IMG/VR virus record: IMGVR_UViG_3300034198_013190 | Location: 1-34,574 of that record | Direction: 5' to 3' (one strand) | DNA length: 34,574 nucleotides | Source of the DNA: a virus | Shown: piece by piece, positions 5,138 through 34,574 of the stretch | How positions within the stretch are numbered: the stretch's first letter is position 1 | Layout of the letters: each line of letters opens with the position of its first letter | Program-made: the position numbers and the translations under genes | Notes under the pieces: generated by a model | The model's input: only the letters and a program-made list of their open reading frames with translations | Told to the model about the DNA's origin: nothing | Database searches by the model: none

Positions 5138-6400
5138 TTATTCAGTCAAAATAAATGCGTTGATTGATTTGGCGTTGCCGATGGCGACTGACTCATAACC
5201 GCCTTCAATGGCATTCGCAAAGTCGGCATCGGATGGCAGGATGTAGCCGTTATCCGCTGGCTTGACAGGCTTCGGCCATTCCTTCGGCACCTCATCATCG
5301 AAAACGACTACTGTCGTGCATCGGCAACCCGGATGAAATGGCGGAAACTTCAGATTTTTATAGGTTTCATTCTTCCCGTTTTGACCGAATGTGCCATCTT
5401 TGGGAATCACCGGGCATTGACGTTTGATCGCATGGCAGAGTGGGCAGGCGTCGGCTGATAACACCAACTCATAACCGGCGACAAAATCCAGGCCCCTTGT
5501 GGCCTCATATCGGCCTTGGTTGTAGGCTCTGGCTGATTCAGTGACAGCAATGCGACGGGCACGCCAGCGGGCGTTCTCTTTCACCCACCGATCAACCCGG
5601 TCCACCGTATCGCCAAGCGTTTCGCCAGTTTGAATCGATTCGGCAATGTCTTCGCGGATTCCGTCAAGTGTCGTGTTCAGATCGAAAATGAACTGGTTTG
5701 TCGTTTCTTGGCAGAGTTTCAGGGCTGCCGTTCGTGCCGCATCAATGACATGCGGAGCTTTCACCAGCCAATTATCTGCGTCCTGCTGGTCAAGCTCTAC
5801 CAATGCCGCCCGGCCTGATTCGTCGATATACGCGGTGATCGTCGGAATGAACCGATTGCCCATTTCGATGGCACCCGCAAAGGGGTCAAGCGGGTTGAAC
5901 TCTTTGGCCTTTGGTGGCTCGATAAACCGCCGCCAAGTTTCAATCTGTTGTTTGCCGATCGATAGCAGAATTGAACGGGCCGCACGATAGAGCGGCTCCC
6001 CGTCCGGCATCGCGTCCAGCAGTTGTCTGGGTGTCTGGCGTGCCTTGACAGCCTCACCACGGGCACGCTTAATCGTTTTAGCCTTAGCGTCTGCCCATGT
6101 CTGGCCAGCGTCGCCGCCCCATGCAGCCCATGCCACTCTGCCGGGGCTTGGATAGCCCGCTTCACCAGGTCGAAAGCCCGTGGCTTTTTTATCGACCTCA
6201 TGACGCGCGAACCATGCCGACATGGTGATGACCACATCTGGCGACAGTTCGCCTGCTGACAGAATCTGGGAGGCCCGTCGCCGTGCGGTGTCGGTTCCAC
6301 CACGGCGGCCGGCGGCCTTCCATTTCCGGTATCGTTCAGCCTCGGCCCGCATCCCTTCAGTGGGTGTCAGGTCGATTGTTTTGTCGTTTACAGTTGCCAA
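5138..6400 (-). CDS. Mu gpF-like minor head protein with N-terminal phage head domain
   Basis: This 420-residue protein has two parts. Residues about 10-115 carry a conserved block (RYRKWKAAGRRGGTDTARRR, then FARHEVDKKATGF and GRVAWAAWGGDAG) that I have seen attached to various phage head proteins. The C-terminal half is the Mu gpF / SPP1 gp7 head morphogenesis domain, with CPLC at 319-322 and HPGCRC at 356-361, likely binding zinc. gpF-like proteins are minor head components ejected with or guarding the DNA. It is 13 bases upstream of the prohead protease. In most phages it directly follows portal; here a fibre/lysis block lies between. Confidence 0.85.
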   Translation of the reverse strand: MATVNDKTIDLTPTEGMRAEAERYRKWKAAGRRGGTDTARRRASQILSAGELSPDVVITMSAWFARHEVDKKATGFRPGEAGYPSPGRVAWAAWGGDAGQTWADAKAKTIKRARGEAVKARQTPRQLLDAMPDGEPLYRAARSILLSIGKQQIETWRRFIEPPKAKEFNPLDPFAGAIEMGNRFIPTITAYIDESGRAALVELDQQDADNWLVKAPHVIDAARTAALKLCQETTNQFIFDLNTTLDGIREDIAESIQTGETLGDTVDRVDRWVKENARWRARRIAVTESARAYNQGRYEATRGLDFVAGYELVLSADACPLCHAIKRQCPVIPKDGTFGQNGKNETYKNLKFPPFHPGCRCTTVVVFDDEVPKEWPKPVKPADNGYILPSDADFANAIEGGYESVAIGNAKSINAFILTE

Positions 6401-23335: not shown

Positions 23336-23364
23336 ATGATACACCTATCACGAAAATACGTCAA
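23336..23364 (-). promoter_or_regulatory. Early operon promoter (TTGACG-17-TATCAT)
   Basis: The minus strand has TTGACG, a 17-base spacer and TATCAT, followed by a roughly 45-base leader and AGGAGC before ATG 23285. The -35 region sits in GGATTGACGTAT, a 12-mer also found inside the promoter at 27454-27482. Both promoters may therefore share a regulator. Confidence 0.75.
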
Positions 23365-23396
23365 TCCCGGATAACTATTTTTATAAAAAATTTTCA

Positions 23397-23504
23397 GTTA
23401 GGGGGCAAGTTAGGGGTCAGTTAGGGGGTATGTTAGGGGTCGATGCTTTCTACAAGTCATCTGTGGTCAATGGCTTGCATGAATCAAGTTAGGGGTGTTA
23501 GGGG
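23397..23504 (+). repeat. Left iteron arm, six GTTAGGGG
   Basis: Copies start at 23397, 23409, 23420, 23432, 23488 and 23497. The outer four are spaced 12, 11 and 12 bp, about one helical turn apart. The four G-runs of the outer group are separated by seven-base gaps, so the plus strand could form a G-quadruplex. Confidence 0.9.
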
Positions 23505-23526
23505 GCAAGTCGAATTTTAGTTTTGC

Positions 23527-23562
23527 TGTGTGTGTGTGTGCGTGCGTATGCGTGCGCGTATG
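23527..23562. repeat. Alternating pyrimidine-purine (Z-DNA-prone) tract
   Basis: Thirty-six consecutive bases alternate pyrimidine and purine: TG repeats followed by CGTGCGTATG-type steps. This is favourable for Z-DNA under negative supercoiling. It lies between the two iteron arms, close to the symmetry point. Confidence 0.85.
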
Positions 23563-23580
23563 AATACAAATATTGAAACA

Positions 23581-23665
23581 CCCCTAACTTTTTGAAAAAC
23601 CCCTAATTTTATAGCGTTTAACCCCTAACTTGACCCCTAACACCACCCCTAACATCACCCCTAAC
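23581..23665 (-). repeat. Right iteron arm, six CCCCTAAC-type
   Basis: Copies start at 23581, 23600 (last base T), 23622, 23634, 23646 and 23658. The outer four are spaced exactly 12 bp. The arm mirrors the left one: two loose inner copies and four phased outer copies. Confidence 0.9.
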
Positions 23666-23672
23666 ATTCAAT

Positions 23673-23695
23673 AAAAAAAAAGGGGATTTCTCCCC
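23673..23695 (-). terminator. Rho-independent terminator of the replication operon
   Basis: On the minus strand GGGGA-GAAA-TCCCC is followed immediately by nine T. It lies just after the primase-helicase stop (23715) and keeps transcription out of the origin. The outer ATTCAA/TTGAAT can extend the pairing. Confidence 0.9.
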
Positions 23696-23714
23696 GTTGA
23701 ATGAATAAAAACGA

Positions 23715-26120
23715 TTAAAAAGCTGATTCACTGCTGGCGTTTTTATTTTCATCAAGTTTTTTGTCGATCTCAGTATCATGATCGCTTTCATCTTTGGTTC
23801 TTACGCCGATGTACCACCTAACATTGCCGGGCTTGGGAGCTATAAGACCAAGATCCTCAACCCGTTTTGTAAATAGTGGTATGGCCTTGCTTGATGGCAA
23901 AACAACAATCCCATTAGCCGACGCCCATCGCTTATAAAGGTCATAAACCTGACTTGCACGAATGCGAGTGTTTTCTTCCAGATAGCCCGGCTTTGTTTCT
24001 GTGGTCAATGTTTCGCCCCAGAACTCTGACAGCCAATCACTTGAATCCTTCACCTTTTGGCTGGAGTCTTTAATCTTGTCAGGAATTGCCAAGCCCTGCT
24101 GTCGATATTTCTTCAGGCCCTCAATTAACCAATTCAAAATGCCGCTGGCCTCGTTATTGAAAAGATATTTTTCAAACTCTGGTTTGCGGTCTTTTTCAGG
24201 AATAGTGTAGTCCCACGGCACAAATGCCAGCCGCCGCCAAATGCCTGAATCCTGACCAACGATAGAAGGCATGTGATTGGCGGCAATTGCAAATTTATGC
24301 GTCGGTGTAAAGCTCCAGAAGTTCTCGTGCATACCTCTCGCCGTGATTGTTCCATCACCCAAAATCATTTTAATTTTGGCTTCGTCCATTGCATCCGAAA
24401 TATCCGTTTCAGATGCCAGTGCAAATCTTGCCCCGCAAAGGGTAATCAATTCGGCAGGGTGTCTCTCTGTTTTTGTCTTGGCTATAAATCCCCTGGGCAT
24501 TTTTGCAAAGTAGGTACCCATCACCAAGCCGACAGATTCAAGTATGGTTGACTTGCCGTTCGCACCATCTCCGTAATTTACGACCGACTCCGACAAAGTT
24601 TTGCCTGTTAAAATCGTGCCCAGCCATCGATGCAAAAACTCCCTGATTTCATTATCAGGTTGCACCATTTTCAACGTCTCTAAAAACTTCGGGCACGTTG
24701 CGTTTTTATCGTAGCAGACAGCGGCCTGTTTGGTTGCCATGAAAGCCGGGTCATGCTGCAATAATTCCATCGTGTTCAAATCAAGAACACCATTCTTTAA
24801 ATTGATGTAATCAGGATCTGAATCAAATGCGTTTGGTGTCGTCAATATCCGATAATCAGACATGCACAGGCTTGCCGCCGCTCTAATCTTTGAAGCCGAT
24901 CCCAGATATTCATCAGGGCCAATTGCAAAGCCCTTGAAAAACTCATGATGCCTTACGTTTGATCGTACCCACATGCCGTTCTGATGATCCCAGGCGGCCC
25001 ATTGTTTCCATTCTTCAACGTATCGAAATTTAGAGCCGTGCGTTTCAATGACAATATCGGCAAATTTCAAATCCGAATATTCATCTTCCGGTATTATTCC
25101 AGCCGCTTCATTTTCAACCGTCGCCTTGACTTTTGTTTTTAATGCCTGGGCCTGATTTGACTTTATTTTGCTTTTCTTGAAATTGCTGTCGGAATTTAGA
25201 TTTGCTGGCTTTCTTGGGTTTTCTCTTGCCCATCGATAAGCGCTTTTAATTGTTGCGTCGTACTCGTTTTTAGGCAGCCCAAGCCTTGCGGCAATAATTG
25301 CACACTCTTGCATAATTGGCGCAGAGTCAATTCCTTGGCTTGCGCAGAGACTTGTTATTTTTAATGCTGATTTATGAAGTCTTTTATTTCTTTCGCCGTC
25401 CTGAGCCTGTGATAAATATTCAAGCTCACCATCAATTCCAGCCTTGAGGTAAGGATGATCAAAATCAATACCACGCCAGATTATCTCTCTTTTTTCAATT
25501 TCATATTGTATCGTCTGCTCTTGGTTTCTTTGCTTTGCAAGATCGTTTAATAACTGCTGTATCACATTCTCAGGCAAATTTGAAATTTTAATATTGCCAT
25601 CAGACGGTAGCACCCAAGCCCTGTAAGTTTTAGTCTTTTTGTGCCACGATGGCGGAATAATACTTTGTGCCATCTTGCCGCAACCAAGCCTGATTTCGAT
25701 CTGTTCATTGACTGGCTTTTCTGCTGGCCAATGCTTAACGGCACTATCAATTGCCTGTAATCTTTCGTCCCAGTGATAAAGCCAGTGAAAACCTCGTGAT
25801 GCTTTAAATGAAAGCGTGTATTCAGGCCGTGGCCCGAAAAGTTCAGTCATTGCATTAATTGCACCATCTGAATCAAGATCAATGTCAATCAATGGCACAG
25901 ATGGGCCGGGGCCTAACACCAGGCCAATGCCTATCGCCTCGCGACTTTGAAAGCATGATTTGATTTCATCAATCTTCCACTCCCTCGCCCATCCTTCACC
26001 GATAGGCTTTTTGCCTTCACCAAGACGACTGATAGGAACCGGCCAAAAACCGCAATCAATTGCAATTCTTGCCGTCTCAAGTTCGTCGGTTGCAGTTACA
26101 AGTTTTTCAAGCAAATTCAT
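23715..26120 (-). CDS. Primase-polymerase / SF3 replicative helicase
   Basis: This 801-residue replication protein has three parts. Residues about 10-190 are the primase-polymerase (AEP) domain, with acidic metal site DIDLD (79-83) and 'SRGFHWLYH' (108-116). A helical linker follows. The D5-type N-terminal region has 'LKNGVLDLNT' near 441. The SF3 helicase has Walker A GDGANGKST (517-525), Walker B 'FALASETD' (566-573), sensor Asn in 'IAANHMP' (about 615) and arginine finger 'GIWRR'. It primes and unwinds phage DNA at an origin, as P4 alpha does. The gene is A/T-rich relative to the structural genes. Confidence 0.92.
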   Translation of the reverse strand: MNLLEKLVTATDELETARIAIDCGFWPVPISRLGEGKKPIGEGWAREWKIDEIKSCFQSREAIGIGLVLGPGPSVPLIDIDLDSDGAINAMTELFGPRPEYTLSFKASRGFHWLYHWDERLQAIDSAVKHWPAEKPVNEQIEIRLGCGKMAQSIIPPSWHKKTKTYRAWVLPSDGNIKISNLPENVIQQLLNDLAKQRNQEQTIQYEIEKREIIWRGIDFDHPYLKAGIDGELEYLSQAQDGERNKRLHKSALKITSLCASQGIDSAPIMQECAIIAARLGLPKNEYDATIKSAYRWARENPRKPANLNSDSNFKKSKIKSNQAQALKTKVKATVENEAAGIIPEDEYSDLKFADIVIETHGSKFRYVEEWKQWAAWDHQNGMWVRSNVRHHEFFKGFAIGPDEYLGSASKIRAAASLCMSDYRILTTPNAFDSDPDYINLKNGVLDLNTMELLQHDPAFMATKQAAVCYDKNATCPKFLETLKMVQPDNEIREFLHRWLGTILTGKTLSESVVNYGDGANGKSTILESVGLVMGTYFAKMPRGFIAKTKTERHPAELITLCGARFALASETDISDAMDEAKIKMILGDGTITARGMHENFWSFTPTHKFAIAANHMPSIVGQDSGIWRRLAFVPWDYTIPEKDRKPEFEKYLFNNEASGILNWLIEGLKKYRQQGLAIPDKIKDSSQKVKDSSDWLSEFWGETLTTETKPGYLEENTRIRASQVYDLYKRWASANGIVVLPSSKAIPLFTKRVEDLGLIAPKPGNVRWYIGVRTKDESDHDTEIDKKLDENKNASSESAF

Positions 26121-26124
26121 GATG

Positions 26125-26907
26125 TTATGCGCCTAGTTGCTTGCGATCAAAAACTTCAGAAAAGTGTCGTTGAAGCTCTGTCATTCCTTTGCTTAAAATT
26201 TGAAATTGAGGATAACAGATACCCTTTTTGTCTGGTGGCGCTATTCCGTTTACTACATAGCCTTTTCTAACAAACTTAATACATGCTTTTGTTTCCGGCT
26301 TCTGCATGTTTTCGTCTAATTTACCCCATCCAAGCACATCTCTTATATAAGAAGCAAACTCTCGTTCAGTTTTAAAATACTTTTGACCTATGTTTTGATA
26401 GGCTGCTCTAATTCCAAATCTATTATCAGTATCAAGAAAATCCTCAAGGTTGTGTGTTAATTTCTTTAAGGTCTGATTTTCTTGTGTTAGCCTTATGTTT
26501 TCCTCGTTCTTATCTTGTAGTAATTGCAAAAACTTTGGAATTGCGGCTATAAGGCTGTTGTTGTCAGTTGGATCAATTGAAATCTGATTTGAAGATGATC
26601 GCTGAAGTCTCTGAATGAGATATTGTGCAAAATCGTATTCTTCGGAATTTGGCTCAAATGGACATCCCAAAAGCCAAGTCGGAATGCCATCAAGTGTTAT
26701 CCACATTCCTTGACCGTCATTTGAAAACGTGTGCTTGCCTTTTAAATTGATGTTTCCATCAATTCGCATTCGTTCGTCATTTGCGTTTAAAAGAAGCTCG
26801 CGACATAAATCTTTGACATTGGCGTATCTGATTCCATTGAACATACCTTTTCTAATTGAACGCCCCTGAAATTCATCATTTGACTTCAACGCTATTTCGC
26901 TGCCCAT
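26125..26907 (-). CDS. P22 Ant-like phage antirepressor
   Basis: I chose ATG 26907 (MGSEIALKSNDEF) with AAAGGA upstream; an earlier ATG at 26940 exists. Residues about 20-100 match the P22 antirepressor N-terminal domain: 'YANVKDLCRELLLN', 'MWITLDGIPTWLLGC' and 'FAQYLIQRLQR'. A coiled coil (about 125-150) and a C-terminal domain ('EREFASYIRDVLGWGK', ending 'LSKGMTELQRHF') similar to KilA-C/Ant-C folds follow. Antirepressors bind and inactivate lysogeny repressors. Here it is coupled to replication. Confidence 0.75.
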   Translation of the reverse strand: MGSEIALKSNDEFQGRSIRKGMFNGIRYANVKDLCRELLLNANDERMRIDGNINLKGKHTFSNDGQGMWITLDGIPTWLLGCPFEPNSEEYDFAQYLIQRLQRSSSNQISIDPTDNNSLIAAIPKFLQLLQDKNEENIRLTQENQTLKKLTHNLEDFLDTDNRFGIRAAYQNIGQKYFKTEREFASYIRDVLGWGKLDENMQKPETKACIKFVRKGYVVNGIAPPDKKGICYPQFQILSKGMTELQRHFSEVFDRKQLGA

Positions 26908-27076
26908 TGCTTCTAATCCTTTCTTCTTCTTCTGCCTCAAGTTCCTGAATCGCTTTGCGCTCTTCTGCTTCGTATGGATCGATAAAACCCGGCTCTGGTT
27001 CGATGTAATAGCCTTTGATCCGTCCTAGCGGCAATTCAAAAGGCACGTATCTGCGAGTCTGGTTTGCCTGATGCAT
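26876..27076 (-). CDS. Hypothetical acidic 66-residue protein
   Basis: The sequence MHQANQTRRYVPFELPLGRI is followed by 'YYIEPEPGFIDPYEAEERKA' and a charged helix 'IQELEAEEEERIRSN'. AAGGAG lies 11 bases before the ATG. It overlaps the genes on both sides by 32 and 41 bases, more than its neighbours do. It is probably a real small gene; no family is recognised. Confidence 0.5.
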   Translation of the reverse strand: MHQANQTRRYVPFELPLGRIKGYYIEPEPGFIDPYEAEERKAIQELEAEEEERIRSNGQRNSVEVK

Positions 27077-33500: not shown

Positions 33501-34574
33501 TAATTAAGCTCCTTAATCTGCTGCATGATTTCTCGCAGATCTTCCGTCTGCTTTTCGATAGCCTTGACGGTCGGGTCTTCGCTGGTTCCAGCCATGAAAT
33601 TACGCTGGAATACGTCAGACGCGCCGATGATTTCGGTTCGCTGGTTTCTCAGTTCAAGGTCACTGATATTTCGCTCAATACCGGCGGCTTTAGCTTGCAG
33701 GCTCTGGCGTTCCAATTCATCTTTGACCATATTGTCAAACTCTTGACCGATATTCTTTTGTTCCATTGCGGCCTTGAGTTTTTCGGTCAGTTGCAATTCA
33801 GGAACACGGCGTGCAAGTTCTTCAAATGCTGACTTGACGCCCTTTGACGCTTGGCCGAGCATGGTGAGTGCATCCATTTCAGCCTGATTGCCTTGTACAC
33901 CTTCTGCCATTAACTGCCGCTCAATGGCCATTTTTGCAGTCTCTGCCTGCCCTTTAATTGCGTCGCCAAACATGGACGCCATTGTCTTATCAGTTTCAAA
34001 TGATGCTTTGTTTCGCTCTGCTGAAATCAATCCTCCGCCAGCCGCCAATGCCTCCTGCATTCGTGCCGCTTGTGGCTGGCTGATTGAGAGATCAATCTGG
34101 TTTCGCATAATCTGGCGGCCAGCGTCTTTATTGGCTTGAATCTGCTGCTGTTCGGTCATACCGAAGAATCGGCCAACCGCGTTATCACCAAAAAGGCCAG
34201 CCGCCTGACGCTGAAAGAACGCTTGCAGGCCAGACGTTTTATCCTGCTGCATTAGCTTTTCCGTCTCTGCCGCCAATGCTTTAACAGACGCTATGCCCAT
34301 ATTAACTGAGCCTGAAAAACCGGCTGCCGATGTTGCCAGTTTTTCAAAGCCGGTACGGGTGTCGAGCATCTTTTCAATTTCTGGGATTGCATTATTAACG
34401 GCAATGGCTGTCAAGGTGAGGACTGAGCCAAACGCCATCGCTTTTTCTGCCGACATGCCCAGCGAACCAGCAGCCGACGCCCCTAATTGCTCCATGTTGT
34501 TAATAATGCCGCGGAATCCATATTGAGCATCATCCGCCATACGTGAGATTGCCAGCCCGAAGCCGCCAAAGCCA
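33500..34574 (-). CDS. Tail tape measure protein, C-terminal part (joins 1-251)
   Basis: This is the main part of the tape measure. An ATG at 34540 exists, but the frame continues upstream past 34574 into 251 through the circular join, so the real start is ATG 251 and the full length 412 residues. Long helices dominate ('AASVKALAAETEKLMQQ'-like stretches, 'MVKDELERQSLQAKAAGI'), with one hydrophobic segment 'FGSVLTLTAIAVNNAIP'. The stop overlaps the next start. Family lengths are usually 600 or more residues, so this is a small tape measure. Confidence 0.8.
   Translation of the reverse strand, partial: GFGGFGLAISRMADDAQYGFRGIINNMEQLGASAAGSLGMSAEKAMAFGSVLTLTAIAVNNAIPEIEKMLDTRTGFEKLATSAAGFSGSVNMGIASVKALAAETEKLMQQDKTSGLQAFFQRQAAGLFGDNAVGRFFGMTEQQQIQANKDAGRQIMRNQIDLSISQPQAARMQEALAAGGGLISAERNKASFETDKTMASMFGDAIKGQAETAKMAIERQLMAEGVQGNQAEMDALTMLGQASKGVKSAFEELARRVPELQLTEKLKAAMEQKNIGQEFDNMVKDELERQSLQAKAAGIERNISDLELRNQRTEIIGASDVFQRNFMAGTSEDPTVKAIEKQTEDLREIMQQIKELN
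34488..34574. repeat. Terminal direct repeat, right copy
   Basis: This is identical to 1-87; see the left copy. Only one of the two should be counted in the genome length. Confidence 0.95.

Follow-up and report, generated by a model that had tools for sequence, protein, structure and literature searches.

In the window, the whole 34,574-nucleotide stretch of viral DNA analysed here, a mirrored array of octamers beside the gene of a primase-helicase is very probably a phage replication origin. The anatomy of the array, its recurrence with different octamers, its constant geometry and the correlation of the octamer with the C-terminal domain of the helicase are established. An initial annotation had read the site as an origin of a new type. 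The origin-like mirrored array with a Z-prone centre beside the primase-helicase stands, whereas the link to an AEP primase, the possible G-quadruplex and the uniqueness of the layout are not supported.

The array and its gene neighbourhood

The record is an IMG/VR virus assembly with a direct terminal repeat of 87 bp (positions 1-87 equal 34488-34574), a repeat that makes it probable that the assembly is circular and complete, at about 34.5 kb. The intergenic region with the putative origin (Table 1) lies directly 3′ of the stop of the primase-helicase, whose protein matches PHROG 1156, a DNA primase. The next gene after the array is also on the minus strand. Just upstream of the primase, at 26125-26940 (minus strand), is the gene of a 271-aa protein with no Pfam or PHROG match.

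Exact matching finds GTTAGGGG on the plus strand with starts at 23397, 23409, 23420, 23432, 23488 and 23497, and CCCCTAAC with starts at 23581, 23622, 23634, 23646 and 23658. The six-plus-six mirrored arrangement is confirmed at the positions first given for it, except that only five of the six right-arm octamers are exact; the sixth, CCCCTAAT, starts at 23600 and has one mismatch. Successive steps are 12, 11, 12, 56 and 9 bp in the left arm and 19, 22, 12, 12 and 12 bp in the right arm, in agreement with an earlier count of four outer copies per arm and two looser inner ones. The 12 octamers are thus phased in the outer arms at 11-12 bp, about one helical turn, and the inner gap between the mirrored arms is 76 bp. 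Beyond the array there is no exact copy of the octamer anywhere in the record. The top 8-mer of the 300-bp array region has 11 copies, compared with a maximum of 3 in 20 shuffled genomes (first-order Markov samples) and with 4 copies of one 8-mer at the next-best 300-bp site of the record outside the array. A scan of the intergenic region for DnaA boxes, IHF-like sites and GATC found none.

Table 1. Positions of the features in and around the array
Feature	Position	Strand	Basis
Intergenic region with putative origin	23352-23714 (363 bp)	none	No ORF of at least 70 aa; primase stop to next gene start
Left outer arm, four GTTAGGGG, steps 12, 11, 12	23397-23439	+	Exact matches
Left inner pair of GTTAGGGG, step 9	23488-23504	+	Exact matches
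Alternating pyrimidine-purine core, 36 nt, TG/CG-rich	23527-23562	none	Run scan; homologous position in relatives
Right inner copies, CCCCTAAC and CCCCTAAT	23581-23607	-	One exact match, one with a mismatch
Right outer arm, four CCCCTAAC, steps 12, 12, 12	23622-23665	-	Exact matches
Promoter-like site of next operon, TTGACG-17-TATCAT	23336-23364	-	10/12 matches
Terminator-like hairpin (23682-23695) with T tail, primase gene	23673-23695	-	Hairpin scan, sequence
Prim-Pol/D5_N/DUF5906 primase-helicase, 801 aa, presumed initiator	23715-26120	-	Pfam, PHROG
Predicted C-terminal winged-helix domain (about residues 719-775), presumed octamer binder	23796-23966	-	AlphaFold, Foldseek, correlation

The array had been placed after the terminator of the primase-helicase gene, and a terminator-like hairpin is indeed found there on the minus strand, from a scan that returns a mean of 0.7 in shuffles and is weak alone. 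The hairpin lies outside the right arm, and outside the left arm, at a distance of about 35 bp, is the promoter-like site. Both would suit an operator or enhancer, at which a repressor or the primase, bound to the octamers, regulates either the next operon's promoter or transcription that reads through from the primase gene. However, a mirrored array of about 270 bp with a central alternating core exceeds what an operator needs, and the layout follows helicase genes while the downstream gene varies, which makes regulation a quite improbable role for the array.

Cumulative GC skew had been put forward as a check on the replication start. It does not turn at the array and has its minimum near 26-28 kb; as an origin marker it is uninformative here.

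The alternating core

The 36-base alternating tract described near the centre of the array was recovered at its position, and the second-longest alternating run in the record is 11 nt. The tract has its midpoint at 23544.5 and the innermost octamers theirs at 23542.5, an offset within 2 nt. The flanks are A/T-rich, as had been noted, with 76% A+T at 23352-23396 and 83% at 23563-23580, compared with 42% inside the tract. An A/T-rich centre of the Sfi21 and SaPI kind is not what is found: the exact centre is the TG/CG tract, and only short flanks are A/T-rich.

The self-complementarity of the tract has no excess over chance and the core is not palindromic. A hairpin or cruciform in the tract is thus not supported. 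It also bears on the possibility that the array is a recombination, telomere-resolution or packaging site, used by a recombinase, a protelomerase or the terminase. Such sites typically have inverted elements on either side of a centre, but a non-palindromic centre speaks against a role of this kind here. The recombinase identified, an ordinary tyrosine integrase, has its gene 4 kb from the array, the large terminase gene is at 13.7-15.0 kb, and the layout follows replicative helicases across phages, so that a role of this kind is very improbable.

By a rough estimate, with energy parameters that are literature values and not fitted, the superhelical density needed for the B-Z transition would be about -0.035 in the tract of the window, with a median of -0.036 in the tracts of relatives and values of -0.047 to -0.059 in all other alternating runs of the record. 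These modelled values fit Z-DNA or the absorption of twist. TA steps in the tracts number 64 where 41 are expected, and the tract of a low-G+C locus (L323) is TA-rich. As TA steps show no depletion, it is alternation that is conserved, and strict selection for Z-DNA is not supported. Flexibility and weak pyrimidine-purine stacking explain these data equally well, and the core is at most a candidate for Z-DNA formation.

A shared layout with a changing octamer

A search of viral and genome contigs by peptide patterns found nothing closely related to the primase, so distant relatives were aligned instead; among those collected, the closest helicases are about 34% identical to the window protein. 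At least 80 viral and at least 80 named-genome loci were gathered by alignment search, and plasmid and phage records were added. Relatives were ranked by similarity to the window, the loci being among the matches listed, and helicase stops were taken from tblastn frames. The first set of 85 loci forms 65 clusters at 90% identity and 33 at 50%, and its loci are not all independent.

At 17 of the 85 loci, the 500 bp 3′ of the helicase contain at least five copies of one 8-mer; the upstream control has such a site at 0 of 78 and the shuffles have none. The octamer varies by locus (TGGGACGG, TGACGCAT, TGTGACGG, GGGAAGCT, TGACAGAT and TGGGACAC are examples), and the layout is often alike, with iterons in one orientation followed by their inverse. 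The octamer changes between phages and the geometry stays. Whether related phages lack the array had been raised as a test of the proposal; they have the same layout with other octamers. This variation also bears on a G-quadruplex, which had been suggested as possible from the plus-strand G-runs. The GGGG runs are regular, with gaps of 7-8 bases, and would place a G-quadruplex on one strand per arm. The iterons of relatives mostly have no G4 runs, however, and the layout is kept with TGACGCAT, TGACGGGT, GTGACC and the AGTTAC of Sfi21, in which such runs are few or absent. A G-quadruplex element is thus hardly credible.

Alternating runs of at least 20 nt occur in the 400 bp 3′ of D5 helicases at 52 of 165 loci, compared with 1 of 3,410 background tiles, although the tiles are mostly coding and may understate the alternating runs and repeats of intergenic DNA generally. 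This bias is partly answered by the upstream control and by the constant position of the tracts. The separate counts are 30 of 85 loci in the first set (0 of 1,745 tiles of the same loci) and 22 of 80 in the named-genome set (1 of 1,665 tiles). A genome sample of the Paracoccus versutus class, drawn by family and not by likeness to the window, has such runs at 9 of 30 loci, compared with 0 of 190. The actinobacterial class sample has them at 1 of 24; runs of at least 14 nt are present at 4 of 24, with a background of 0.6%. Counted by cluster in the first set, a long tract is present in 19 of 65 (90% identity) and 6 of 33 (50% identity). On a quick tree the trait needs 12 changes, at least seven of them forced by starred branches, which indicates that the tract has been gained or lost repeatedly.

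The inverted arms recur with the tracts. For 51 non-redundant tract loci, the two 90-bp flanks of the tract were compared. The longest inverted match between them has a mean length of 13.6 bp and reaches at least 8 bp in 47 of the 51; the mean is 6.6 bp for direct matches and 6.9 bp when the flanks come from different loci. The inner iteron mostly lies 15-20 nt ahead of the tract on one side and 19-28 nt past it on the other, and the window has 14 and 27. Inverted repeats of at least 11 bp with a gap of 40-130 bp are found at 44% of 170 loci and in 1.9% of background tiles, with a median gap of 66 bp. By sequence comparison, the array of the window is an enlarged (6+6) version of a compact layout, in relatives usually 2+2 and about 130 bp long.

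A 20-nt run is absent from most related loci, and mycobacteriophages have iterons 3′ of the primase-helicase without a tract; the family can therefore do without it. The mycobacteriophages are Nergal, Aminay and MacnCheese, in which iterons such as TCTGTGCT/AGCACAGA mark candidate origins in well-studied phages. The tract is not tied to the Prim-Pol primase either: several tract-bearing relatives have no Pfam Prim-Pol match, and the layout does not follow the AEP primase. Nor is it confined to Pseudomonadota, since the helicases of two tract-bearing loci (L313 and L265) fall among actinobacterial ones and the actinobacterial sample has the runs of at least 14 nt given above. BPP-1 was considered as a named tract-bearing phage and has no long tract.

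In a large proteobacterial group (L286, L294, L312, L329 and L333), the gene after the origin starts with a LALDLGTTTGWAL-like motif. It lies about 100 bp after the tract, forms a stable gene pair and possibly encodes a RuvC-like resolvase. The window has a different gene of 135 aa at the corresponding place.

The C-terminal domain as presumed octamer binder

An AlphaFold model of the last 170 residues of the window protein has a mean pLDDT of 79, with confidence highest at about residues 719-755 and an order of elements that is winged-helix-like. The top Foldseek matches, with a probability of 0.99 and weak E-values of at least 0.02, are to the DNA-binding domain of RFX1 and to the tail of C962R, a Prim-Pol/SF3 protein. 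The C-terminus of one relative, L472, has a Pfam match to Pox_D5 and one to the RFX DNA-binding domain below the cut-off. The C962R tail resembles RFX1 and the origin-binding domain of P4 alpha, and C962R forms a dodecamer of two hexamers (PMC10516667). The predicted fold supports, but is not proof of, binding of origin DNA by the window protein through its C-terminus.

Iteron similarity correlates with the similarity of the last 115 residues when the helicase core is removed (partial r 0.42, p 0.001), and among the same 24 loci it has no correlation with the core when the C-terminus is removed. Such a pattern is expected if the winged helix reads the iterons. The loci are non-redundant and few, and the correlation suggests that what iteron type tracks is the winged helix at the C-terminus and not the helicase core.

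These data have to be set against the pRN1 model, in which the origin is recognised as an extruded stem-loop or cruciform and its iterons are not read in the duplex. Many loci do have inverted arms of 10-29 bp, and pRN1 depends on a stem-loop on the 3′ side of its gene, as has been proposed for BIP-1 too (PMC4234260). However, the arms are made of repeated octamers at helical phasing, those of the window have unequal spacers and a perfect inner stem of at most 14 bp, and the core pairs with itself at chance level. An iteron type that follows the C-terminal domain also argues against extrusion, which is unlikely to be how the origin is recognised.

Other helicases and other settings

A gene-blind scan of viral contigs for YRYR(CG)7YRYR gives 87 loci. 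Only 6 of the 87 tracts have a recognisable D5 helicase in reach, and five of these six lie within 350 nt of its 3′ end. Some of the intergenic tracts follow a Prim-Pol/DUF5906 gene (L440) or the genes of VapE-type helicases (L453, L457, L491). Inverted arms of at least 10 bp flank 22 of 81 gene-blind tracts, and a few of the matches are alternating sequence itself. Because the tracts follow genes of these two kinds, some with inverted arms, the layout probably extends beyond D5 helicases. Long CG tracts occur in other settings too. The layout may be present in VapE replicons, in a small sample: the genome sample has only nine usable VapE loci, two of them with runs of at least 14 nt, which is too few. 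At L453, L457, L491, L496, L544 and L559 a tract lies close to where a VapE-like helicase gene ends, and mirrored arms accompany several of these tracts.

The exact octamer fails as a mark of the family. Arrays of GTTAGGGG are present in many unrelated viral contigs, some of them coding or simple repeats, and the octamer is not the conserved part. It occurs three-fold and on two strands more often than a reversed-octamer control (53/119 against 24/128, and 12 against 3). Mirrored arms of GTTAGGGG/CCCCTAAC with A/T-rich centres are found at L044 (4307-4598) and L007 (542-638). The former array is at the 3′ end of a VapE-type helicase gene, the latter a few kb from a putative replication gene of 917 aa. 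That another helicase type has the octamer in common suggests convergence or an exchange of the DNA-binding domain. Two further arrays were noted. At L087 a mirrored array of GCGTTAGGGG (6070-6141) falls within the 3′-terminal part of a 498-aa DUF3631 gene. At L040 (14127-14308), and also at L054, L021 and L092, four copies of CCCCTAACC with conserved spacing directly follow a tyrosine integrase gene; these may be integrase arm sites rather than an origin.

How the probable origin may open

The reading that joins these observations is an origin where a winged helix binds the octamers, opposed helicase rings load, the core untwists and bidirectional forks result, and it is held with high confidence. 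The primase-helicase would bind the octamers via its C-terminal winged-helix domain. Since each arm mirrors the other, one helicase ring could load at each, the two being opposed, an arrangement suggested by SF3 double hexamers. The core would untwist first, as pyrimidine-purine steps stack weakly, and negative supercoiling could flip it toward Z-DNA or let it take up twist. Either change would ease the opening of the core and its A/T-rich flanks. The primase part would then prime both strands and the forks would depart both ways.

A wider proposal can be made only tentatively and has the odds somewhat against it: that in widespread phage and plasmid origins a Z-DNA-forming or strained alternating core replaces the A/T-rich element where opposed rings of the D5 or VapE type open DNA. 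The question posed is how DNA opens where the centre of an origin is often G+C-rich and alternating and not A/T-rich. Whether non-B DNA plays a part at origins is a long-standing debate, and this natural, recurrent and compact system makes the matter testable by swapping one tract. The layout also gives a sequence rule for finding origins, namely a helicase gene followed by iterons, an alternating core and inverted iterons. It applies to uncharacterised prophages and plasmids with D5-type helicases and covers the culturable hosts Paracoccus versutus, Tepidimonas ignava and Ruegeria intermedia. Prophages with a tract are present in P. versutus DSM 582 (L412) and T. ignava DSM 12034 (L350).

Comparison with known systems

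The annotated origin of the Streptococcus phage Sfi21 (NC_000872) is, like the array, a non-coding region (302 bp) directly 3′ of a putative primase gene. Its inverted 18-bp iteron arms, CTTTAGTTACTTAGTTAC and the inverse, are 71 bp apart and mirrored as in the window. The repeat differs, there are about two copies per arm rather than six, and unlike the window the centre is A/T-rich with an alternating run of at most 9 nt.

The SaPI origin has an A/T-rich centre flanked by iterons. SaPI and SCCmec helicases have iterons directly downstream of the gene that are bound by the C-terminal domain, and the placement of the iterons at SaPI and putative SCCmec Cch2 origins, for which two hexamers are proposed, is like that of the window (PMC7581432). 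They differ from the window in their iterons and in a primase that is a separate protein, and no alternating core is reported in that work (PMC7581432).

Replication of pRN1 requires a stem-loop 3′ of a Prim-Pol/SF3/winged-helix gene, and a stem-loop origin is proposed for the Bordetella phage BIP-1 (PMC4234260). The likeness lies in a 3′ element with inverted arms, at which two rings and bidirectional forks are proposed (PMC4234260). The difference is that this element is read as a stem-loop without iterons and has no alternating tract.

The P4 primase is of the Toprim type; the window protein has D5_N and DUF5906 but a Prim-Pol primase, and so is not P4-type. We know of no mirrored arms around an alternating core at the P4 origin. 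P4 alpha is described in two papers as a primase-helicase with a C-terminal winged-helix origin-binding domain that acts on repeats (PMC4234260, PMC10516667).

The Acidithiobacillus phage AcaML1 has the geometry of the window 3′ of gp17, with GACGGGT-type iterons, a CGTACACGCGCGCGCGCGTA tract and inverted ACCCGTCAGATCCGTCAG. It differs in having two to three iterons per arm and a primase without a Pfam Prim-Pol match, and the site is not annotated as an origin.

The initial annotation knew of no similar layout. This does not hold in view of the inverted arms 3′ of the primase in Sfi21 and of SaPI origins that are close in kind. Such mirrored iterons, placed 3′ of the initiator gene, belong to a kind of origin already known, because Sfi21, SaPI/SCCmec and pRN1 have origin elements in the same place. 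Literature searches, largely confined to work outside subscription journals, brought up no alternating core at origins of this kind, and the recurrent alternating core appears to be new.
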